This document shows, one piece after another, positions 1,744-17,066 of a stretch of 64,000 nt of DNA. The notes beneath the pieces were generated by a model. That model was not told the origin of the DNA, did not search any database, and was given only the letters and a program-made list of their open reading frames with translations. The position numbers and the translations under genes are program-made. The stretch comes from Propionimicrobium sp. PCR01-08-3 (GTDB lineage: Bacteria; Actinomycetota; Actinomycetes; Propionibacteriales; Propionibacteriaceae), in contig NZ_CP127390.1 in NCBI RefSeq assembly GCF_030286045.1, forward strand, positions 2,683,482 through 2,747,481, given 5' to 3'. The stretch's first letter is position 1. Each line of letters opens with the position of its first letter.

Positions 1744-2389
1744 GTCAGGGGTCAGCCACGACCTGGCGTCGGTCCAGGAGATTCTTCCAGGCGGGACCGC
1801 CGAGACATGGACGGCGATCACTCCGGTTGTTCCCAAGTCTGCATATTTGGCTGGGGGCACAGCGCTCGCCGTCCACCTGAAACACCGCATTTCACGAGAC
1901 CTGGATTTCTTTACCGAGCGTGAATTCAATGTCGATCAACTCGCGGCACAACTATCTGAATTGGGCGACTTCGCTCCGACACTTGTAGTGCCAGGCACGC
2001 TCAACGGCATCTTCAACCGCACCAAGATCCAATTTCTTAAGGCCGGCTCTCAACGCAATGTGGAAGCGCCCACCGTCTTCGCCGGAATCCGTATCGCGTC
2101 CGTGGCTGATCTGATGGCAAGCAAACTCAAGGTCATCGGAGATCGCGGCGAATTGCGGGACTATTTCGACATCATGATGATCGAGGAGCAAACCGACATC
2201 TCGTTGGAGAATGGCTTGGAGCTATTCATTCAGCGATACCAGCCAAAAGTTCCGGACGCCGCGATCGCTCATTTGCTGCGCGGGCTCGGCTACATGGACG
2301 ATGTTGCCGATGATCCGGGACTGCCCGTTTCGCGAAGGTTAATCGAGGATTTCTGGACCGCACGCATGCGGACTCTGAATCCGTTCTGA
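1736..2389 (+). CDS. AbiEii-type nucleotidyltransferase toxin
   Basis: 217 residues from the ATG at 1736, which overlaps the upstream TGA; a TTG three codons earlier is less likely. The core YLAGGTALAVHL followed by RISRDLDFF is the nucleotidyltransferase signature (GG...T/S and DxD) of the AbiEii/DUF1814 family. Later ADLMASKLKVIGDRGELRDYFD matches the family's K/D-containing helices. Known members act as the toxin in AbiE phage-abortive systems, and related enzymes modify tRNA acceptor ends. The overlap implies translational coupling with the AbiEi-like gene. Confidence 0.8.
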   Translation: MTESGVSHDLASVQEILPGGTAETWTAITPVVPKSAYLAGGTALAVHLKHRISRDLDFFTEREFNVDQLAAQLSELGDFAPTLVVPGTLNGIFNRTKIQFLKAGSQRNVEAPTVFAGIRIASVADLMASKLKVIGDRGELRDYFDIMMIEEQTDISLENGLELFIQRYQPKVPDAAIAHLLRGLGYMDDVADDPGLPVSRRLIEDFWTARMRTLNPF

Positions 2390-2414
2390 CACTCACGTGT
2401 GGCGATAGCCCGCG

Positions 2415-3584
2415 TCAACGCCCGTCGATCACCTTGATCTGGTCGTCCAAACGGTAGGGACGCGAATGCACGACCGTGCCCAGTTCACCGTTGATGCGGC
2501 AGATCTCCGCGCGGACTGCGGCCGTGGCATCCGGGCGTCCATAGACCGCCTCGGCCAGCTCGCGGGCACTCACTCCGGCCGGATGATCGGCCAGCCAGGC
2601 CACGATCTGGGCGCGGCGTCCCTGCAACTCGTGCGTCGCGCCGGCGGTGCTGCCCTGCACGGTGAATCGGCAGCGATGCTCCGACAGAGTCAATTCCAAC
2701 CGTTCCTGCACGCTCGCCCATGTTCCCGCGGGACGCAGCAGCCAACCGCCGGCCACCCTGTCCCCTGTCACCAACCCGAGCCTGTCGACCGTGAACACTC
2801 CCTGCGGATTGCCGGGCAGCCGAAGCTTCCCTTTCGTCGGCATCTCACCCGCCGCAGCCACCCAGCCCCAGTCGTCGACGAGCGCCCATCGTCCGCTCAC
2901 CGGGGTTCTGGTCGAGGCAGTCAACCGATCGAGGCTTCGCCCGTGCTCCGCTTTGAGTTCGACCCCGATCTGGCGGGCGACACTGGCCACCAGCGCAATC
3001 GCCATCGGGTTCGCGTCTTCGACGGGAAACGACAAGTCGATGGCACCAAGCGGGCGCATGGTTCGTGGGTCGATCACCGGTGCCGCCGCACAACTCCACG
3101 CGTGGTGGCTGACACAGAAATGCTCCGCAGCATGAACGTGCACCGGGATTCCGGCGCTCAGCGCGGTGCCGATGGCGTTGGTGCCGACGGCCTTCTCCGA
3201 CCACCTGTTGCCGGGCTGAAAGGAGAACTCATCGGCCCGCTTCATGATCGCACGCTCCCCCGAGCGCCAACGGATCGTCCCTTGCGCGTCGGAGAGCACC
3301 AAAAGCACCCGCGAGTCGTCAACCAGCGGGCCGAGAATCGACTCGATGACCGGCAGCAGAGTCAGGATCGCGGCGTCACCGGCGTCCGGTTCGGATTCGA
3401 CCGTGGCGGGTATCTTCGCCGGGTTCATTCCGGCACGTCTCACCCGCAGCCATGAATCCCTGATCACCGGACGAGGCTGAGCAGGCGGACGATCACCGCT
3501 GAACCAGGCCGCATGAATCCGCTCCAGCACCTCCCGGTGCGAACCTTCGTCCGACTGCGCGAACGCCACGTCGTAAGAGCCCAT
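2415..3584 (-). CDS. acoR: GAF-domain activator of the acetoin operon (AcoR-like)
   Basis: 389 residues from the ATG at 3584, preceded by GGTGAGG; an in-frame start at 3632 lacks a better site. Residues about 60-230 form a GAF-type sensor region (VIRDSWLRVRRAG..., NAIGTALSAGIPV, HHAWSCAAAPV), as in AcoR-family regulators. The AAA+ sigma-54 module of proteobacterial AcoR is absent, and the C-terminal region (SARELAEAVYGR, residues about 310-389) looks like a winged-helix DNA-binding domain. This fits actinobacteria, which lack sigma-54. It is divergent from acoABCL across about 280 bp, so it probably senses acetoin or a related inducer. Confidence 0.8.
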   Translation of the reverse strand: MGSYDVAFAQSDEGSHREVLERIHAAWFSGDRPPAQPRPVIRDSWLRVRRAGMNPAKIPATVESEPDAGDAAILTLLPVIESILGPLVDDSRVLLVLSDAQGTIRWRSGERAIMKRADEFSFQPGNRWSEKAVGTNAIGTALSAGIPVHVHAAEHFCVSHHAWSCAAAPVIDPRTMRPLGAIDLSFPVEDANPMAIALVASVARQIGVELKAEHGRSLDRLTASTRTPVSGRWALVDDWGWVAAAGEMPTKGKLRLPGNPQGVFTVDRLGLVTGDRVAGGWLLRPAGTWASVQERLELTLSEHRCRFTVQGSTAGATHELQGRRAQIVAWLADHPAGVSARELAEAVYGRPDATAAVRAEICRINGELGTVVHSRPYRLDDQIKVIDGR

Positions 3585-7453: not shown

Positions 7454-9130
7454 ATGACTGCCATGAATGATTCGTTCGATGTGTTGGTGATCGGTGCCGG
7501 GCCGGGCGGTTATGTCGCCGCGATCCGGGCCGCCCAGCACGGGCTGCGAACTGCCATCGTCGAGCGCGGAAACGTAGGTGGGGTCTGTCTCAATGTGGGC
7601 TGCATCCCGACCAAGGCGATGCTGCACGGCGCCCAGGTTGCCCACACATTGGCCGATGCCGGCACGTATGGTTTCACCGTGCCGGGCGGAACCGTGTTCG
7701 ACATCGGGCAGCTGGTGAAGTTCTCGGATTCGGTGGTGTCCCAGCTGGTCGCGGGCGTCCGTGCTTTGCTGGCAGCAAACGGAGTCGAGGTCATCACCGG
7801 TTCCGCGAAACTGACCGGCAAGGGCGAGGTGAGTGTTACCGATCAGGCAGGAGCGACACCTGATGGACGCCAGCGAGCGGGTGAGCCGCACAGTGCGGAG
7901 ACCGTGCGGTCCCATGACGGGACCCGCCGACCCGACGCATCGCAGCTCGAGGATGCGGGAGCACGTGGCTCCGGTCGTATCCTGCGGAACGGCACGAGCG
8001 CGGGCCCGGCGCGCGTGCTGCACGCCGATCACGTCATCGTCGCGACCGGTGCGCGTCCGAGGGTGCTGCCCGGCATTACACCGGATGGCAAGAACATCTG
8101 GACCTCAACCGACGCCCTGCGTCCGACGAAGCTGCCGGAATCGCTGGTGATCATCGGTTCCGGCGCGATCGGCACCGAGTTCGCGAGTCTGTATGCGGGC
8201 CTCGGCACCAGGGTCACGCTGTTGGAGGCGCTCGATTCGATCCTTCCGGCCGAGGACGCAGCAGTCTCGGCAGCCATGGTGCGTCAACTGCAGGCTCAGG
8301 GGGTGCGGTGCGAAGCAGGCGTACGGGTTGTTTCGGTCACCTCACAGGAGCCAGAAGCACTCGCGGGATCATCTCCAGCCGACCATGACATGCCGCCGGG
8401 CAGCATCTTAGGATCAGCCGAAGCGGGCAGCGGCGACGCCGCCCGGGACAACGGAGCCGGCGTCACCACCACGATCACTCTCGCGAACGGACAATCCGAA
8501 ACCATCCACAGCGAGCACGTGCTGGTCGCCGCCGGAGTGGTGCCCAATACCGAGGGACTCGGATTGGCCGAGCTCGGCGTCCGGTTCGAGCGCGGCTTCA
8601 TTGCCACGGACGAATGGTGCCGCACCGGGGTGGCAGGGCTCTATGCCATCGGAGATGTCGCGGGCGGTCCATGCCTGGCTCATAAGGCCAGTCATGAGGC
8701 GATCATCTGTGTGGACCATCTCGCCGGAGTTGCGGGGGTTCGTCCGCTGGACCGGGTCTTCGTGCCTCGCTGCACCTATTCTCGTCCGCAGATTGCGAGC
8801 CTCGGATACACCGAAAAACAGGCCCGCGAGTTCGGGCGCCGAATCGAGATGGGTGTCTTCGATCTGGCAGCCAATGGCAAGGCCCTGGCCCAGGGTGAAG
8901 CCGCCGGGTTCGTGAAGACCATCTTCGACTCCGAATCCGGTGAACTGCTCGGCGCGCATATGGTCGGGCCGGAGGTCACCGAAATGATTCAGGGATTCTC
9001 GATCGCTCGCAGCTTGGAGGCCACCGCCGACGAGCTAGCCGAGACCGTCTTCCCGCATCCATCGGTCTCCGAAGCAATGCACGAGTCGGTGCTGGCTTCG
9101 CTGGGCCGGGCAATCCACGCACTGCCGTAA
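7454..9130 (+). CDS. acoL: Dihydrolipoamide dehydrogenase (E3) with two extra loops
   Basis: 558 residues, about 90 longer than typical E3. FAD motif GAGPGG (14-19), redox pair Cys45/Cys50 in GGVCLNVGCIPTK, NAD motif GSGAIG (235-240), second FAD motif YAIGDVAGG, and the C-terminal PHPSVSEAMHE with the catalytic His-Glu pair are all present. Extra length is two Gly/Ala/Ser/Asp-rich insertions at about 131-184 and 297-336, both in surface loops between strands, so activity is probably kept. It reoxidises the E2 lipoyl group. Last gene of acoABCL. Confidence 0.87.
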   Translation: MTAMNDSFDVLVIGAGPGGYVAAIRAAQHGLRTAIVERGNVGGVCLNVGCIPTKAMLHGAQVAHTLADAGTYGFTVPGGTVFDIGQLVKFSDSVVSQLVAGVRALLAANGVEVITGSAKLTGKGEVSVTDQAGATPDGRQRAGEPHSAETVRSHDGTRRPDASQLEDAGARGSGRILRNGTSAGPARVLHADHVIVATGARPRVLPGITPDGKNIWTSTDALRPTKLPESLVIIGSGAIGTEFASLYAGLGTRVTLLEALDSILPAEDAAVSAAMVRQLQAQGVRCEAGVRVVSVTSQEPEALAGSSPADHDMPPGSILGSAEAGSGDAARDNGAGVTTTITLANGQSETIHSEHVLVAAGVVPNTEGLGLAELGVRFERGFIATDEWCRTGVAGLYAIGDVAGGPCLAHKASHEAIICVDHLAGVAGVRPLDRVFVPRCTYSRPQIASLGYTEKQAREFGRRIEMGVFDLAANGKALAQGEAAGFVKTIFDSESGELLGAHMVGPEVTEMIQGFSIARSLEATADELAETVFPHPSVSEAMHESVLASLGRAIHALP

Positions 9131-9134
9131 ACCT

Positions 9135-9174
9135 GTTTGGGCCCTTGCCGATCCCCTCCGGCAGGGGCCCAAAC
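9135..9174. terminator. Bidirectional terminator hairpin
   Basis: A 16-bp stem (9135-9150 with 9159-9174, one G:U pair) built on GTTTGGGCCC / GGGCCCAAAC. It sits between the convergent acoL and helicase genes and can end both transcripts. Confidence 0.75.
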
Positions 9175-9183
9175 TCCTACTCA

Positions 9184-12100
9184 TCATTGCGAAGCTTCGT
9201 CTGGAACGAAATGCTCGTGGATGACCCTGTCTTGCTGAATGACTGTGATCTGAGTGCCTGCTTGCTTGGCCCATGAATCGGCGTCCAGCAGGTGCCGCCA
9301 GTCCATATCGGTAGTCATGCTCCAGCAATCGTCAGGTGCGCCTCGCCAGGTAAAACCGGACGACTTGAGATCCGCTCTCCATCCGTCGAGGTCAGGGCCC
9401 AAGGCATTACTGACCAGGATCTCCACCCGATCGTCCGGGCTTAATGCGCCAGGCATGTCCGGCAAGACGGCGAGAGTAGCGGAGAAGGCCTTCCAGAACG
9501 GTGACGCGCCCGACGCGGACGTGAGCACATCGAGATACTCGCGTGGGCGGCTGATCCCGACATAGAACAATCGCCGTTCGGCATCGGTCAACTTCTCAGG
9601 AGTGTCCCCGAACACCTGCAGCATCTGCCAGGTCGGGTGAACGAACGGATGATTGTGGTCGTCCACATCGACCAGAATGACGGCGTCGGCCTCTTGCCCC
9701 TTGAAGCTGTGAATCGTACCGAAATGGACGCTGTCCGAGTCTTCTACACCCAGCAGTTCGAGGAACTTAGAGCCGTATTCATCGAACGAACCCCATACCG
9801 ATTGATGAGCCGCGGCCTTGCCGCTGCCAAAGTGAACGAACCGGCCGTGGCCGTTTCTGCGCAACACAGCCACCGTTCGTCCATGTGCCAGGTGTTCGGC
9901 GATCAGCCGTAATAGTGCGGGTGTTAGCCGGTCGCAGGCGTCGAACAGTTTCTGCTCGTCTGCAGTGGGCCAAAACCCATCCAGGTCGAAGGTGCGGATG
10001 ACTCCCTCGCCGGCATCGGCCGCCGGTTTCGCTGGTGTTCCGCGCCCGCTCATCAGGGTGTTACCGGCCTTCACGATGGCCTTCGCGGAGCGGCGATTGG
10101 TCACCAATTCAAGGCGTTGTGCTCCCGGAAATTCCTTTTCGAAATCGTGGAAATATCTGGTGTCGCTGCCTGCGAATTCGTTGATCGCCTGCCAGTCGTC
10201 GCCCACCGTCATCACCGTGCAGCCGGGCGCTACCGCCAAGATCGCCTGAATAAGCTCGTCGAACATCAGCGAAAAATCTTGAAACTCATCAATGACGATG
10301 TGCCGAAGCCCGGCCAACGAACCCACCTCCCGCGCACCACCGCCGAACTCGGTCTCGCCACTGCGAACCTTGCCGATGGCCTGCCACATCAGACCCGGAA
10401 AATCATTGCTGTGACTGTCGGCCAACTTCGCCTCATATCGGCCGAGCACATCCGCTGCCAGTTCGGTAACCGCGCCCGGCCCGACAGCGCCATGCGGTGC
10501 TTGACCCAGCTCGGTTTTCAGCTGTGCACTGCTCCAACTGCGCTGCCGCGCTCGGGAAATGATCTGCCGGACGACTGAGGTGAACCTGTCGATAGCGCGT
10601 TCTCCCACCCGCTCCCACATGTCATCCTCGCCCAGCTTCGGTGGCTGAGGCAGACCGGCAGCCCGCAGGTCATGCAACAGCGCCGCCTCGAAACCCGGGT
10701 CCGCGACATTTTCAGGAAGGTACCCCAGGAAGGTCACAGATTCGGACGGGTTCTTCTCAATCCATTCCGCCCAGTAGTCGCGCTTCTTCTGCGAAATCTG
10801 GTCATATTCCAGATCGCCCACCATGCCGAAATATTCGATGACCACATGCTTGCGCCGCTTGCCGGAGCTCGTATCAACCGGATCGAAGATCATAAAATCA
10901 GGCTTGTAATTGGCTCCGTTCCAGAAGACGTCAGCTTCGTATTTGTAGGTCCATTCGTTCGTGTGCTCCGAGTCGCCAGTGAACCCGTTCAGATACAAAG
11001 CATTTGCGATCGCTTTTTCGCCATAAGACTTCACGAAATCGCCCTTGATACTCTCGCGGGCGAGTCCTGCTCGCTCGGCCAGGCCCTGTCTCGCAGATAC
11101 CTGGCCGAACGCCTTGATGCGTTCCCAGTCACCCTTGAAGTACTCGAGCATCACGTCCCTGACGCGACGCTCCCAGTCCGGGTCATCCATGAGCTCGTCA
11201 ATACATTTCTGAACAAACCAGGAAAGCTCACCACCGGTACCGGACGCATCAGACGCATCGGCAAGCAGCGTCCCTGTTGGGTGGACGATCCGGTGGGCGA
11301 GCGCGTGAAAGGTCAGCACATAGGGCAATTGCTCTGGTCCGAGTTGGCTCGCCAGCCTGGTCTCGATCTCTTTGGCCGCATCTTTGTTGAACGCGAGCAT
11401 CATGATCGATTTCGGGTCAGCCCCGCGTCCTTTGATGAGAAATACCGTGCGGGCGACCATGGTTGCGGTCTTCCCACTCCCAGCACGCGCCGCCACCAGC
11501 GCATGCTGCCCGGTCGTTGCGATAACGGCCGCCTGCTCCCGATTCGGGACGAAGGGTCTACCGCTGCCGAAAGCAACGTTCTCGCGACACCATTCGACGA
11601 CGTGATCAATGATGACCGACCGGGCATGTGGGCCGAGACCGGCCAGGTCAACACCCGCGGCCGGGAACCCGTCCTGGAGCCACTGCACGAGGCAGGCTTC
11701 GTAGATTCTGGCGGTACCGATTTGTTCGAGGAGCCAAGAGGATTCCATCAAGTGATCGGTGCCTGCCAGATCGCCCCTGATCCTATCCGGCAAGGCATTT
11801 CGGCACCATCGGGCGATCTGAGTGTCCATCGCGTCTCGGATTCTGGGCCGGGTTCGCAACCGGGACTGCGTGATTCTCCCGATAGTGGGTTCCGGATCGG
11901 AGGTCAGTTCCTCGACCAGGTGGGTTCTCACCCAATCGGTGACGCATTGATCGAAACGGTAACCGAGGTCGCACCGGTCGAGTAGCCCGCTGGACTGGAT
12001 CTGCACTGTGACCTGCCAAAAGTCACACTCCAAGTCGGCAGGAAGAGTGCCGGTGATGCGTTCAGCAGTGGGCTGATACCAGGTGGACGCCGGCTGCAGC

Positions 12101-12341
12101 TCGCTCTTGGCCGCAGGCGCGCCCGGCGTTGATTCCGCTGACGCCGGCACGTCCGCACCGGTCATTACAGAATCATTCAGCGGTGCGCCGAACTTCGCGC
12201 GCACTCGCCGAACAACCGGAGCCTCCAGTGTCGAAGACGTCGAGCGGACGAACCCCCCATCTCGGTGAGCGTGGCGAGCAGTTCGCGGGAGCTGATCCCG
12301 AGTTCCCGCGCGAGTTCGTACACCCGAGCCTTGGTCGTCAT
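9184..12341 (-). CDS. SF1 helicase with IF2_N domain and nuclease-like insert, frameshifted near N-terminus
   Basis: Starting at ATG 12341 (GTGAGGA upstream) the first 29 codons read as the IF2_N fold seen at the start of bacterial IF-2 (KARVYELARELGISSREL...). At 12257-12262 a run of six G shifts the frame; the second half (FVRSTSSTLEAPVVRRVRAKF) continues in the frame used by the rest. Frame-corrected product is about 1052 residues. Helicase motifs: AGSGKT (about 290), DEFQDF (about 687), VGDDWQAI (about 716), TNRRS (about 748), THSF-type TIHSFKGQEAD (about 877), FYVGISRPRE (about 927). Between motifs I and II, residues about 440-530 carry YKPDF...VIEYFG, as in HelD-like helicases with a PD-(D/E)XK-like insert. 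It follows a ClpB-D2-like ATPase by 9 bp. Without frameshifting, translation could only restart near ATG 12165. Confidence 0.75.
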
Positions 12342-12350
12342 GGTCTGTCC

Positions 12351-13448
12351 TCACGCTGCTTCGGAGACTTCGAGCCAGCGTCCGTCGTCCGCGACCGAGA
12401 CCCGGGCATTGCGGGAGTGGATCTTTGCAAGCGGACGCAACAGGTGCCGCTCAATCGTCCGCTGGAGATATCGGGCCCCATGGGCCGGATCGTAGTCGAC
12501 GTCCGCGATCCAGGCCGGCACATTTTCGTCGCACAAGATGTGCCAGCCTCGCTCATCCAGACGCTCCGTGAGCCCAGAAACCTCCTTGCGAGCGATCTCG
12601 CGGATCGCATAGCGATCGAGTGGATCGAAGACCACCGTTGCGCTCATGCGTCCTATGAATTCGGGCGGCAGAGCCTTGGCGATGACCCCGAGCTGGCGCT
12701 CAGCGTCAAAGCTCACTTCTCCGTCTGTGGCGCCGAAGCCGACCTGCGGAGCAGTGGCCTCTTCGGCACCGAGATTACTTGTCATCACGATGATCGACTC
12801 GTCGAAGTGAGCAGTCTTACCCCAGCCATCGGTGAGTATCCCTTCATCGAAGATCTGCAGAAACAGTGGCCAGATACTCGGATCCGACTTCTCGAATTCG
12901 TCGAGCAAAAGGACATTGAGCGGCTTGCGGCGCACACGGGTGGTGAGCAAACCCTCGGTTGAACTGTTCTTCCAGATCCGGGATCCCCCGATGAGCTTCA
13001 TGCGCGCATCCTGGCCATCGGCGTACTCGCTCATGTCTAGGCGGATCAATGCCCGGTCGGTGCCGTAAACGACACGGGCGAGCGACTTGGCGAGCTGGGT
13101 CTTGCCGACCCCGGTCGGCCCTGCGAAGAAGAACACTGCATGTGGACGCTCGGGTCTGATCTTCAAGCCTGCGAGAGGGGCAGCGAGACTCTCGGCCACC
13201 GTGGCGATGGCCTTCTCCTGGCCCCGAACGTCCTGGGCCAATGCCGACACGATGGCCTCGGACGACAGATCCCGCTGGATCTCCGGAAACTCGGGCTCCA
13301 GCTCGCCGAAGCCGAAATTGAAGCTGAACTCTTCGATGGCTTCGTCCGAATTGTCGGTGGTCGCATTCGGGTCGCAGGCAAAGGGGTCTTGGTCGTCGAC
13401 GACTTCGGGGTTCTTGGGGGTATCGATCAGCTGTGCCATAGCGACCAC
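12351..13448 (-). CDS. Stand-alone ClpA/ClpB D2-type AAA+ ATPase
   Basis: 365 residues. After an acidic N-terminal tail (1-60) it holds one AAA+ module matching the second ring of ClpA/ClpB: Walker A GPTGVGKT (110-117), Walker B LLLDE (180-184), sensor 1 Asn in MTSNLG (about 225), arginine-finger-like R267 in PEFIGRMS, and sensor 2 GAR (324-326). The Clp N-domain, first AAA+ ring and ClpB coiled coil are missing, and no IGF/LGF ClpP loop is evident. A GTG start at 13448 is preceded by GGAG at 7 nt. It is the first gene of a two-gene operon with the IF2_N-helicase, suggesting a joint remodelling role, possibly in DNA repair or defence. Confidence 0.8.
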   Translation of the reverse strand: MVAMAQLIDTPKNPEVVDDQDPFACDPNATTDNSDEAIEEFSFNFGFGELEPEFPEIQRDLSSEAIVSALAQDVRGQEKAIATVAESLAAPLAGLKIRPERPHAVFFFAGPTGVGKTQLAKSLARVVYGTDRALIRLDMSEYADGQDARMKLIGGSRIWKNSSTEGLLTTRVRRKPLNVLLLDEFEKSDPSIWPLFLQIFDEGILTDGWGKTAHFDESIIVMTSNLGAEEATAPQVGFGATDGEVSFDAERQLGVIAKALPPEFIGRMSATVVFDPLDRYAIREIARKEVSGLTERLDERGWHILCDENVPAWIADVDYDPAHGARYLQRTIERHLLRPLAKIHSRNARVSVADDGRWLEVSEAA

Positions 13449-13802
13449 AGTAGGTCTCCGAAGGCTTCAAATCATCCCGAAAACCGAGAATAACCGCTAG
13501 TCAGAGAGGTTTAGGCTCGCGCGACATTTCCGTCCCGGATGAATAGACCAAAGCTCTTGTGAGCCTAACAGGGCGTTCAAATATGCTCAGGGCGAACAGA
13601 AGCCGAACTATTGCCCGCAAACCTCCGCGCCGCGAATCAGGGGCACGGGCAAGCACCGACGGTGCCTCATCTCACCAGGCGGTCCGATCGAAGCGCCATC
13701 ATCCCTTGCCACCTGCCATTGCAGGCGTCCACGAGGTGTCGGTTGCGAGGCAGCAATTGCGCCGGAAGCTAGCCTTGTTGAGAAGGCGAAAGAAGGACGA
13801 TC
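13449..13802. other. 354-bp divergent intergenic region before ilvD
   Basis: No gene is seen. It contains a perfect 8-bp inverted repeat, TTAGGCTC (13511-13518) and GAGCCTAA (13561-13568), about 40 bp apart, and AGAAGGA just before the ilvD ATG. I find no leader peptide rich in Ile/Val/Leu codons and no T-box. Confidence 0.4.
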
Positions 13803-15650
13803 ATGCCGAAGCTGCGATCTCGCACGACCACCGACGGCCGCAATATGGCCGGAGCCCGCGCACTCTGGCGCGCCACCGGGCTCACCAACGAGGATTTCGG
13901 CAAGCCGATCATCGCGATCGCCAACAGCTTCACCCAGTTCGTACCCGGCCACGTCGGGCTGCGCGACGTCGGCACCATTGTCGCCGACGCGGTGAAAGAG
14001 GCCGGCGGCATCGCCCGCGAGTTCAACACGATCGCCATCGATGACGGCATCGCGATGGGCCACGACGGCATGCTGTACTCGTTGCCCAGCCGCGAAATCA
14101 TCGCCGACTCGGTCGAATACATGGTCAACGGCCACAAGGCCGACGCGCTGGTGTGCATCTCCAACTGTGACAAGATCACTCCCGGCATGCTGATTGCGGC
14201 CATGCGGCTGAATATTCCGACAGTCTTCGTCTCGGGCGGCCCGATGGAGTCCGGGCGTCCGGTGACCATGGACGACGGCTCCCAGTCGCACCGGCTCGAC
14301 CTGATCGACGCGATGACCAACGCCGTCGACCAGCAGGTTTCGGACGACGAACTGTGGCGCATGGAGCAGGCTGCCTGCCCGACCTGCGGCTCGTGCTCGG
14401 GCATGTTCACCGCCAACTCGATGAACTGCCTGACCGAGGCGCTCGGCCTGGCGCTGCCGGGCAACGGCACCACGCTGGCCACCCATGCCTTCCGAAAAGA
14501 ACTCTTTCAAGAGGCCGGACGCACCGTCGTCCAGATCGCCAAGCGTTACTACGACCAGGACGATGACTCGGTGCTGCCGCTGTCGATCGCCACCAAGAAG
14601 GCCTTCTCGAACGCCATGACGATGGACATCGCCATGGGCGGTTCGACGAACACGATCCTGCATCTGTTGGCGGCCGCTCAGGAGGCGAGAGTTGACTTCA
14701 CTCAGGACGACATTGACGAGCTGAGCCGTCACGTCCCCTGCATCTGCAAGGTGGCTCCGAACACCAAGAACTACTTCATCGAAGACGTGCACCGCGCCGG
14801 CGGAATCCCAGCAATCCTGGGTGAGCTCAATCGTTCCGGCCTGCTCGACCCTGAGGTGCACTCGATCCATCACGATTCGATCCAGGGCTACCTGGACGAT
14901 TGGGACATCCGCGGAGGCAAGGCTGTACCCGAGGCCGATCGGCTGTTCCATGCCGCACCGGGCGGCGTCCGCACTACTGAGATGTTCTCAGCGAGCGCGT
15001 TGTGGGACACTCTCGACCTGGACGCAGAATTGGGCTGCATTCGCTCGGTCGAGCACGCCTACACCACAGACGGCGGCCTGGGCATTCTGAAGGGCAATAT
15101 CGCCCTCGATGGCTGCGTGGTCAAGACCGCCGGTGTGCCCACCGACCAGTGGGTGTTCCGTGGCCCGGCGAAGGTTACCGAGTCTCAGGAGGAGGCCGTC
15201 GACGCGATCCTTTCCGGACGCATCGAGGCCGGCGATGTGGTGGTCGTCCGCTACGAGGGTCCGAAGGGCGGGCCGGGTATGCAGGAGATGCTCTACCCCA
15301 CCAGCTACCTGAAGGGTGTCGGGCTCGGCCCGAAGTGCGCGCTGATCACCGACGGCCGATTCTCGGGCGGTTCGTCCGGCCTGTCGCTCGGCCACATCAG
15401 CCCCGAAGCCGCCAGTGGCGGCGCTATCGGTCTGGTGCGGGACGGCGACATCATCTCGATCGATATCCCCGGCCGCACGATCAACGTCGAGCTCTCGGAC
15501 GAAGAGTTGGCGACTCGCCGCGCTGAGCAGGACAAGATCGGCTGGCACCCGGCCACCCGTGATCGCAAGGTCTCCAACTCGCTGAAGATCTTCGCGCTGC
15601 TCGCCCAAAGCGCCGACAAGGGCGCGGCCCGCCGCCAACTCGAAGACTGA
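13803..15650 (+). CDS. ilvD: Dihydroxy-acid dehydratase
   Basis: 615 residues. Dehydrates 2,3-dihydroxy-isovalerate and -methylvalerate, the third step of branched-chain amino acid synthesis, in the cytoplasm. Fe-S and metal-site signatures [12 protein letters not shown] and [19 protein letters not shown] place all cluster Cys in view; the C-terminal [14 protein letters not shown]-type motif ([18 protein letters not shown] region) and GRFSGGSSG are intact. Length is normal for the family. AGAAGGA precedes the ATG. No other ilv genes are adjacent. Confidence 0.95.
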
Positions 15651-15782
15651 AAGTTTGTCGTGCAGTTTGCCGGAGCAACGTCCCACAACGATCCTTGGCC
15701 CCACAGGATGATGCTTACTACCGATGCACACCCGCCGCGGATCCGCTCCCAGCGTCCGCCGGACCAGACTCAGGTTGGTTGA

Positions 15783-17066
15783 TCACTCTCGATGCTTCAC
15801 TGGCGTCCACAGTCTATCGATCGGCATGACATGGATGCGATCGTCGTAGGTAAAGGATCGTTGCCCCGTAGTCAGCACGATCCCAGCGGCAAAGTGCGAG
15901 CCTAATGCGGCCCGTAATTGCTGTAGTCCTTTGAAATCAGGTGCTGTCGCACGTTGATTGGCCTTGACCTCGAACGCGACGACCGTTCCATCTTCGAACT
16001 CGATTACGAGATCAACCTCGGCGCCGTCGCTTGTGCGCCAGTGTCCAAGCACCACTGGCTCCTCAAGCCAAGAGGTCTGCTTGCGAATTTCGCCTACCAC
16101 AAAGGTCTCCAGCAAGTTGCCAAATTCCGTCAAGGGCGCGGGGTCCAGCGATCCGAGCTTTGCCGGAGTAAGTCGCAGCAGCCTAGCAGCAAGTCCAGAG
16201 TCCACCACGTGTGCTTTTGGACGCGCACTCACCCTTGACCGCAAGGTTTTCCCCCACGCCGGCAGTCTAGAAACCAAGAAGAGATCTTCAAGTAATCGCA
16301 AATGGGCTTCCGCCGTTTTGCGCTCCACACCGATTGACTCGGCCGCCTTAGTGATGTTCAGCAATTGACCAGTTTGCGCGGCAACGTAAGTGACCAAATC
16401 GGCCAGCGACTGTCTTTGCCTGACCTTGAGCAGTTTGGTTGCATCACGTTCGATTGACTGACGCAAGTAATCATCAAACCAGCGGGCACGAGCAGCATCC
16501 GAACGTCGAACGGCAAGCGGAAATCCGCCCGCGCAGACCCGTGCCACATAATCTTCGCGAGAAGTGCCGGACTTGGAGTGCTGTGCCACCACAGAGTCCG
16601 AACAGATCCGAAGCTCCTCAATAAGGTTCTCCGTCACGCCAGCCATCTCACCCTGCGACATCGGCCAGAGGACCATCGAGTGGACGCGCCCCGTCAAGGC
16701 CTGAGCCGTCATCGGCAGTGCATCCTGCCTCGTAGATCCAGTAATGATCGCTATTCCAGGTTGGCTTCCTTCTCGGTTAAGACGGGCTTTGATCGCGTCC
16801 AGAACGTCTGGAACACGCTGATACTCGTCTATGCACAGCGGGATTTGCCCGTCACCGATCAAGCTCAGATTGCCGGCTACTGCTTCGCGCACATCCACGT
16901 CATCAAGATCTATGATCTCAACGCCACAGCTTGAGGCGAGACTGCGAAGCACCGTGGACTTTCCCACGGACCTCGGTCCATGCAACGCGACCACTGGCTC
17001 GTCTAGAAGCCTGCTTGACAACACCGCTGTTACCCGGCGTTCCAGTAGCGGAGACGCATCGATCAT
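15783..17066 (-). CDS. AAA_14/DUF4143-type ATPase
   Basis: 427 residues. N-terminal P-loop GPRSVGKST (about 30-38), Walker B-like CIDEYQRVPDVLDAIK, and sensor segment IAIITGSTRQD form the AAA_14 domain; the C-terminal part (TVVAFEVKANQRATAPDFKGLQQL) is the DUF4143 nuclease-like fold with E/K residues. Such proteins are common, often horizontally mobile, and of unknown role. An AT-richer stretch just upstream with GAGTAG-N5-CTACTC (17110-17126) may hold its promoter/operator. Convergent with ilvD. Confidence 0.85.
   Translation of the reverse strand: MIDASPLLERRVTAVLSSRLLDEPVVALHGPRSVGKSTVLRSLASSCGVEIIDLDDVDVREAVAGNLSLIGDGQIPLCIDEYQRVPDVLDAIKARLNREGSQPGIAIITGSTRQDALPMTAQALTGRVHSMVLWPMSQGEMAGVTENLIEELRICSDSVVAQHSKSGTSREDYVARVCAGGFPLAVRRSDAARARWFDDYLRQSIERDATKLLKVRQRQSLADLVTYVAAQTGQLLNITKAAESIGVERKTAEAHLRLLEDLFLVSRLPAWGKTLRSRVSARPKAHVVDSGLAARLLRLTPAKLGSLDPAPLTEFGNLLETFVVGEIRKQTSWLEEPVVLGHWRTSDGAEVDLVIEFEDGTVVAFEVKANQRATAPDFKGLQQLRAALGSHFAAGIVLTTGQRSFTYDDRIHVMPIDRLWTPVKHRE

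Follow-up and report, generated by a model that had tools for sequence, protein, structure and literature searches.

What do two adjacent minus-strand genes of Propionimicrobium sp. PCR01-08-3 contribute to this bacterium, of which one encodes a Clp-type AAA+ ATPase and the other a superfamily 1 (SF1) helicase, and do their products act together? Both genes lie in the window, that is, the whole 64-kb stretch of DNA analysed here. An original prediction, made from the letters of this stretch, had described them as a two-gene module, perhaps for repair or anti-phage defence. Our analysis favours the reading that the two genes form an islet of accessory functions in DNA processing, which was either gained since the split from two sister genomes or lost by the sisters; we assign to this reading a probability of roughly 45%. 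The islet was probably acquired and serves DNA processing in defence or repair; among its possible purposes, defence against mobile DNA is the likeliest and DNA repair ranks second. The units in question are:

9127..13767: inserted islet of about 4.6 kb between lpd and ilvD, absent from the genomes G005 and G007
12351..13448, minus strand: Clp-type AAA+ ATPase with a D2 ring only, 365 residues (list of open reading frames (ORFs), profile matches, structure matches)
9184..12354, minus strand: helicase ORF, 1056 residues from a GTG that overlaps the stop codon of the ATPase gene (ORF list, profiles, model)

An islet absent from sister genomes

In the sister genomes G005 and G007, lpd and ilvD adjoin with about 0.2 kb between the aligned ends, and their IlvD proteins are 92% identical to that of the window. 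The GC content is 60.0% in the helicase gene and 61.2% in the ATPase gene, whereas it ranges from 63.5 to 66.5% in lpd, E2, E1beta, and ilvD. At an E-value of 1e-40, the helicase was found in only one of 198 genomes of the family, namely its own. Obvious transposon ends were sought as shared or inverted words of at least 9 bases between the two ends of the islet, and none were found; a scan for promoters and terminators gave a result no better than that for shuffled sequences.

The AAA+ ATPase and its relatives

The ATPase contains the following elements, all on the minus strand:

13098-13121: Walker A
12957..12977: pore-loop position, which reads IWKNSST and not the GYVG-type loop of ClpB (alignment)
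12888-12911: Walker B
12768-12785: sensor 1
12642-12659: Arg-finger loop
12459-12479: sensor 2

The protein matches the profiles AAA_2 (1.1e-35) and ClpB_D2-small (7.1e-15) and aligns with ClpB over the D2 half only (profile positions 562-828 of 853), which bears out the proposal of a stand-alone AAA+ protein resembling the second ring of ClpA/ClpB. Compared with the ClpB family TIGR03346, whose members have an N domain and a middle domain besides their two AAA rings, it reaches 227 bits, from the D2 part only, versus a curated score of 1232. The accompanying premise that ClpB needs both rings turned out to be no general rule: one of the structures matched by the ATPase is PDB 7ttr, the CLPB homologue (caseinolytic peptidase B protein homolog), a single-ring protein in which a Clp D2 ring works without a first ring. 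The ATPase is farther from this homologue (4.9e-31) than from two-ring ClpB (2.2e-54) and, unlike the homologue, gave no ankyrin match in the profile scan.

Eight relatives were found in the genomes G017, G023, G583, G661, G928, G919, G950, and G1273; the searches that yielded the last seven used E cut-offs chosen to exclude ordinary ClpB, so that weaker members of the family would escape. In a tree of D2 rings, computed for all of these but G1273, the ATPase and its seven relatives form one clade (support 100/100) apart from 38 ClpB/Clp rows; because branches are long, the branching order inside the clade is unsure. The ATPase belongs to a family of accessory proteins of actinobacteria that is distinct from ClpB. 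Its interpretation as a ClpB remnant was rejected, as the tree places it in a different clade from ClpB. The motif W[KR]NSST is common, among the rows listed, only to the ATPase and its closest relative (L168 in genome G928, 58% identical). The ORFs of the eight relatives comprise 517-841 residues, and a second P-loop-type match precedes the D2 ring in four of the five that were scanned, which are all but L169, L170, and L203. A viral scan with the ATPase found no relative. Among the 40 records listed out of 1846 matching plasmid records, none exceeded 40.4% identity; 16 of these 40 are annotated as ClpB or Clp and one as an AAA family ATPase, the rest being unnamed.

The neighbours of the relatives are informative as well. 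Genes for TY-Chap1, TIR, or Mrr proteins adjoin five of the seven relatives considered (all but L203). At three loci (L163, L164, and L170), a TY-Chap1 gene lies directly upstream of the Clp-like gene, and the two products possibly form a chaperone/co-chaperone pair. These three Clp-like proteins belong to the same D2 clade as the ATPase of the window, which, unlike them, has 365 residues, no TY-Chap1 neighbour, and the pore loop WKNSST. A literature search for "TY-Chap" found no mention in the papers listed. An Mrr gene neighbours the relative in L036, and in L037 (7286-9666) a TIR-domain gene overlaps the Clp-like gene. The latter locus also contains a CHAT/TCAD7 protein (14497-16560) about 5.7 kb from the Clp-like gene, downstream on the map. 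In L168 and L169, where a single upstream gene was scanned each, the outcome was no match and a helix-turn-helix (HTH) match, respectively.

The helicase and its nuclease-like insert

Within the helicase ORF, the following elements were located on the minus strand:

11467..11490: SF1 motif I (ARAGSGKT)
10645..11055: PD-(D/E)XK-like insert, residues 434-570, with E446, D486, E507, and K524; residue 509, where a lysine is usual, is a Phe
10276..10290: SF1 motif II (DEFQD)
9541..9576: SF1 motif VI (RRLFYVGISRPR)
9208..9426: C-terminal alpha/beta domain, residues 977-1049

The ORF matches UvrD-helicase (9e-31) and UvrD_C, and its UvrD fold core begins at about residue 240. UvrD_N and UvrD_C domains, the main SF1 motifs, and a modelled UvrD-type fold identify it as a UvrD-fold SF1 helicase. 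Together with the predicted fold of the insert, these features confirm the earlier description of an SF1 helicase of about 1050 residues with a PD-(D/E)XK-like insert. According to an alignment inspected by eye, the relatives L033 and L038 end in a stretch similar to the C-terminal domain. In 25 phage records, of which 15 were listed, only distant helicase matches occurred.

For the insert, the AlphaFold2 (AF2) model (mean predicted local distance difference test (pLDDT) value 91) predicts the order alpha-beta-beta-beta-alpha-beta, which corresponds to the PD-(D/E)XK core. In alignment A3, which contains all rows but that of L049 with its degenerate insert and lost motif, E507 and K524 are conserved in 26 of 26 rows, E446 in 25, and D486 in 24; the position of the usual catalytic lysine is occupied by F, W, Y, or L. 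A profile search matched the insert to T7 endonuclease I with an E-value of 0.0039. The best fold match determined by Foldseek was an R2 retrotransposon protein (E 1.4e-3, template modelling (TM) score 0.42 by query length), followed by XisH proteins and, lower down, Card1, cap-snatching endonucleases, and BstEII. All of these matches are weak: no row falls below E 0.001, and the top rows contain many nucleases of this superfamily with unrelated folds mixed in.

To judge from gene spacing, the helicase seems to stand alone at most of the closest loci, whose neighbours were mostly assessed by eye. Two relatives are embedded in BREX operons (L052, 5269-8136; L042, 5443-8424). In L052 the order is PglX-like, PglZ, helicase, BrxL, and in L042 BrxC and PglX are followed by the helicase and another ATPase that resembles a helicase. 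Integrase genes adjoin the relatives at L034 and L050. In L043 (5164-8355) the helicase carries an RNase H domain (6.8e-18) as an N-terminal fusion, and the relative in L049 (6493-6807) has a nuclease-like insert devoid of the conserved residues.

A frame break within IF2_N

The N-terminus of the helicase had been described as carrying an IF2_N domain and as starting 9 bp after the ATPase gene. The elements concerned, on the minus strand, are:

12342..12350: gap of 9 bp that separates the ATPase stop codon from the ATG at which the IF2_N frame opens
12255..12335: IF2_N, first half (PF04760 positions 2-28), in frame from the ATG at 12339-12341, which is open for 54 codons
12253..12258: six consecutive G on the coding strand, at which the reading of IF2_N shifts frame
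12190..12252: IF2_N, second half, read in the frame of the helicase ORF

The ATG lies exactly 9 bp on and is preceded by a Shine-Dalgarno-like GAGGA box, but its frame comprises only 54 codons and half of IF2_N. The coding sequence of the domain is likewise present but split across two frames: the first half scores 32.5 bits (PF04760 cut-off 25.3) and is also detected by a genome-wide PF04760 search, whereas the remainder (FVRSTSSTLEAPVVRRV...) is encoded in the frame of the helicase ORF, which is displaced by one base from that of the ATG. No single frame thus contains the whole PF04760 domain, and as assembled, IF2_N plus helicase is encoded by no single frame. The earliest start of the helicase ORF is the GTG, and its residues up to about 34 are an out-of-frame reading of the start of IF2_N. 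Aligned with the genome's own IF2, the two halves score 91 and 72, the maxima of 500 shuffles each being 35 and 37, and they follow each other in collinear order, separated by a single residue; since the scores exceed all shuffles and the pieces are collinear, they represent more than chance. Before the G run, the third-position GC content favours the ATG frame (0.85 vs 0.48, 27 codons); after it, the frames are barely separated (0.65 vs 0.70, 66 codons).

A survey of 42 genomes, in which IF2 itself was recognised by paired hits and frame length, found, apart from the case in the window, a single clear IF2_N outside IF2, located at the C-terminal end of a caspase-like protein; frames in G001, G020, and G021 that are short or lie at contig ends were set aside, as was one hit below the cut-off in G019. 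The caspase-like protein (L200, 5120-6973) has 618 residues, a PF00656 match of 7.7e-7, and an IF2_N match of 5.6e-12; a DO-GTPase2 gene (2158-3399, 1.3e-8) lies near it. A literature search on IF2_N and caspase found nothing, and one on IF2_N and UvrD gave a sole match, a survey of E. coli RNA-binding proteins.

Co-occurrence of the two genes

A match to the ATPase (E 1e-4) was present at none of 121 helicase loci (117 from searches plus L033, L034, L035, and L038) within the flanks present, which extend at least 1.2 kb upstream of the helicase in 93 cases and at least 3 kb on both sides in 61; all five control loci were positive. In 17 genomes with the helicase (15 from the helicase loci, two from another search), 39 Clp matches all lie in frames of at least 660 residues, except for one frame of 376 residues, whose match starts 165 bases into its contig. 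Conversely, the helicase occurred at none of the eight loci of ATPase relatives within the stretch fetched (only 5.7 kb for G017) and, at E 1e-15, in none of seven genomes of these relatives (all but G1273).

The original prediction had named homologues regularly found apart as the observation that would count against its two-gene module, and the homologues are apart in every case examined. As no second example was found among the helicase loci, loci of ATPase relatives, and genomes examined, we reject a conserved two-gene system. A joint function of ATPase and helicase is possible but unproven; only the spacing and the shared insertion suggest a partnership.

Comparison with known systems

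The best curated match of the helicase is DNA helicase IV (NF008276, the E. coli HelD type; 3e-50), with which it has the SF1 core in common. It scores 171.4 bits compared with the curated 543 and, unlike DNA helicase IV, lacks a Helicase_IV_N match and bears an unrelated long N-terminus. For HelD, which recycles RNA polymerase, the score is 24.3 bits compared with the curated 419. The GajB match (7.7e-37) has its best stretch in the helicase core; an assignment to Gabija was rejected, as the neighbour of the helicase is AAA_2 and not GajA.

The BREX loci L052 and L042 contain a helicase of the same family with the insert. For the islet itself, PglX, PglZ, BrxC, and BrxL are all absent from the PADLOC matches listed for both islet proteins, the DUF4143 protein described below, and 10 neighbouring proteins (for the helicase, the best 25 of 51 rows). 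A term search in the main text of a 2026 BREX survey (PMC12839542) did not find "UvrD", and a literature search found no paper joining BREX, UvrD, BrxL, and nuclease. Dodola (DolA-DolB) is described as consisting of two genes, one of them for a Clp-like ATPase (PMC11514479); unlike in Dodola, the second gene of the islet encodes a helicase. The DolB match of the ATPase (4.4e-29) was dismissed as non-specific, because the genome's true ClpB gives 2.7e-29, and DolA is absent from the PADLOC rows of the helicase (best 25 of 51) and the DUF4143 protein (all 9). Membership in PDC-M37 was rejected on the same grounds, as the profile fits true ClpB as well or better.

A further likeness, by analogy only, is the transposition-to-replication switch of phage Mu, in which an AAA+ remodeller, IF2, and a helicase act successively on one nucleoprotein complex: ClpX is needed before IF2 binds the Mu ends, and the PriA helicase then displaces IF2 (PMC3334882). 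The same paper reports that IF2 forms without the N-terminus likewise bound Mu DNA (PMC3334882). The match of the window's ATPase to ClpX is weak (3.1e-7). Conflict systems with AAA+ chaperones and with SF1 helicases among the effectors are described in PMC7159879.

Genes around the islet

Around the islet lie ilvD, an ABC transporter, and a gene cluster for a 2-oxoacid dehydrogenase. Just past ilvD, a second insertion, which is absent in G005 and G007, contains the gene of an AAA_14/DUF4143 ATPase (15783-17066, minus strand; PADLOC PDC-S01 7e-140; GC content 56.7%). On the other side, two parts of the lpd gene (7842-8011 and 8327-8450) are unaligned with G005 and G007, whose gaps there measure about 17-19 bases; Lpd of the window has 558 residues.

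Weighing the explanations

Because of the BREX-embedded helicases and the TY-Chap1, TIR, and Mrr neighbours of the ATPase relatives, both families look accessory or conflict-type, and the proposed role in repair or anti-phage defence thereby gains indirect support. If the islet processes DNA, the helicase would translocate on single-stranded or forked DNA, and its insert would cut the DNA on which the enzyme moves. IF2_N, once joined to the helicase, might act as a targeting domain that directs it to nucleic acid, to stalled forks, or to the translation machinery, and the AAA+ ring could pull bound proteins off the same DNA. Several observations weigh against the reading as an accessory DNA-processing islet. 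Metabolic or transport genes lie on both sides; PADLOC gave no match for nine of the 10 neighbouring proteins and general ATPase models for the remaining ABC ATPase; and the sole candidate-defence gene found nearby is that of the DUF4143 ATPase, 2.3 kb off. On the DolB/PDC-M37B profiles, ClpB of the same genome does as well as the ATPase or better. In the insert, Phe replaces the usual PD-(D/E)XK catalytic lysine, for which K524 is a candidate substitute, and in the BREX-embedded helicase of L052 the conserved Asp is replaced by Asn. Finally, the pair of ATPase and helicase was found only once, and the fusion of IF2_N and helicase is frame-broken at this locus.

That two unrelated accessory genes entered in one insertion and share no function is a serious competitor, to which we give slightly less than an even chance: neither gene was seen at the loci of the other's relatives, and the ATPase relatives adjoin TY-Chap1 instead in three of seven cases; on the other hand, the 9-bp spacing and the GAGGA box suggest co-translation, and both genes share one insertion. 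Less probable, and in our view rather doubtful, is an ordinary DNA repair helicase of the helicase IV type with a bystander ATPase. DNA helicase IV is indeed the best curated family (171 bits), and the closest loci are mostly stand-alone by spacing, but the rarity of the helicase, its presence in an islet, and the two relatives within BREX operons argue against it. The most far-reaching design, a compact anti-mobile-element machine, we consider the least probable of all; drawn by analogy, it would realise the logic of the Mu switch in two genes, such that the ring strips an invader complex, the IF2-like domain, which resembles that of the host factor, docks at the exposed fork, the helicase-nuclease attached to it destroys this fork, and a frameshift site where IF2_N ends sets the amount of docking enzyme.

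The frame break itself admits three explanations. The islet may be decaying, a real mutation having stripped IF2_N, so that the helicase core is made from the GTG overlap, from an internal start, or never; this stands not far below even odds. The collinear halves in frames one base apart fit such an event, and with motifs and frame otherwise intact over 1056 residues, a shorter enzyme could still arise; the long intact frame speaks against old decay, however, and the same picture would arise if the run of G had been misread in sequencing. Such an assembly or sequencing error, in which case the true gene would encode an IF2_N-helicase fusion, is comparably plausible: the break coincides with one of just five G/C runs of at least six in the 64 kb, but the flanking genes compared are intact ORFs. 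Highly improbable, in contrast, is a regulatory break, in which a -1 ribosomal frameshift at G_GGG_GGT, or on/off switching by slippage, sets whether the helicase carries IF2_N. Sites of -1 ribosomal frameshifting follow the pattern X_XXY_YYZ, which the G run fits in the right frame, and it is the -1 frame that encodes the helicase. The 70 nucleotides that begin 5 nucleotides downstream fold at -31.7 kcal/mol, a stability equalled by 4% of the gene's 70-nucleotide windows; this value is only about 1.5 standard deviations beyond composition shuffles (-26.6, standard deviation 3.4). Moreover, no homologue bearing the G-run site was found, and six G are short for phase variation.

Implications

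The helicase represents a little-described helicase-nuclease family with varied N-terminal modules, such as the IF2_N coding sequence in the window and RNase H in L043. Because members were found inside two BREX operons, the family is a candidate defence part. As the sole other clear case of IF2_N outside IF2 in the 42 genomes is the caspase-like protein near DO-GTPase2, there is a hint that conflict systems may use this domain as an adaptor. Should the ATPase and the helicase work together, the islet would connect a protein unfoldase with a helicase-nuclease and a domain of a translation factor.

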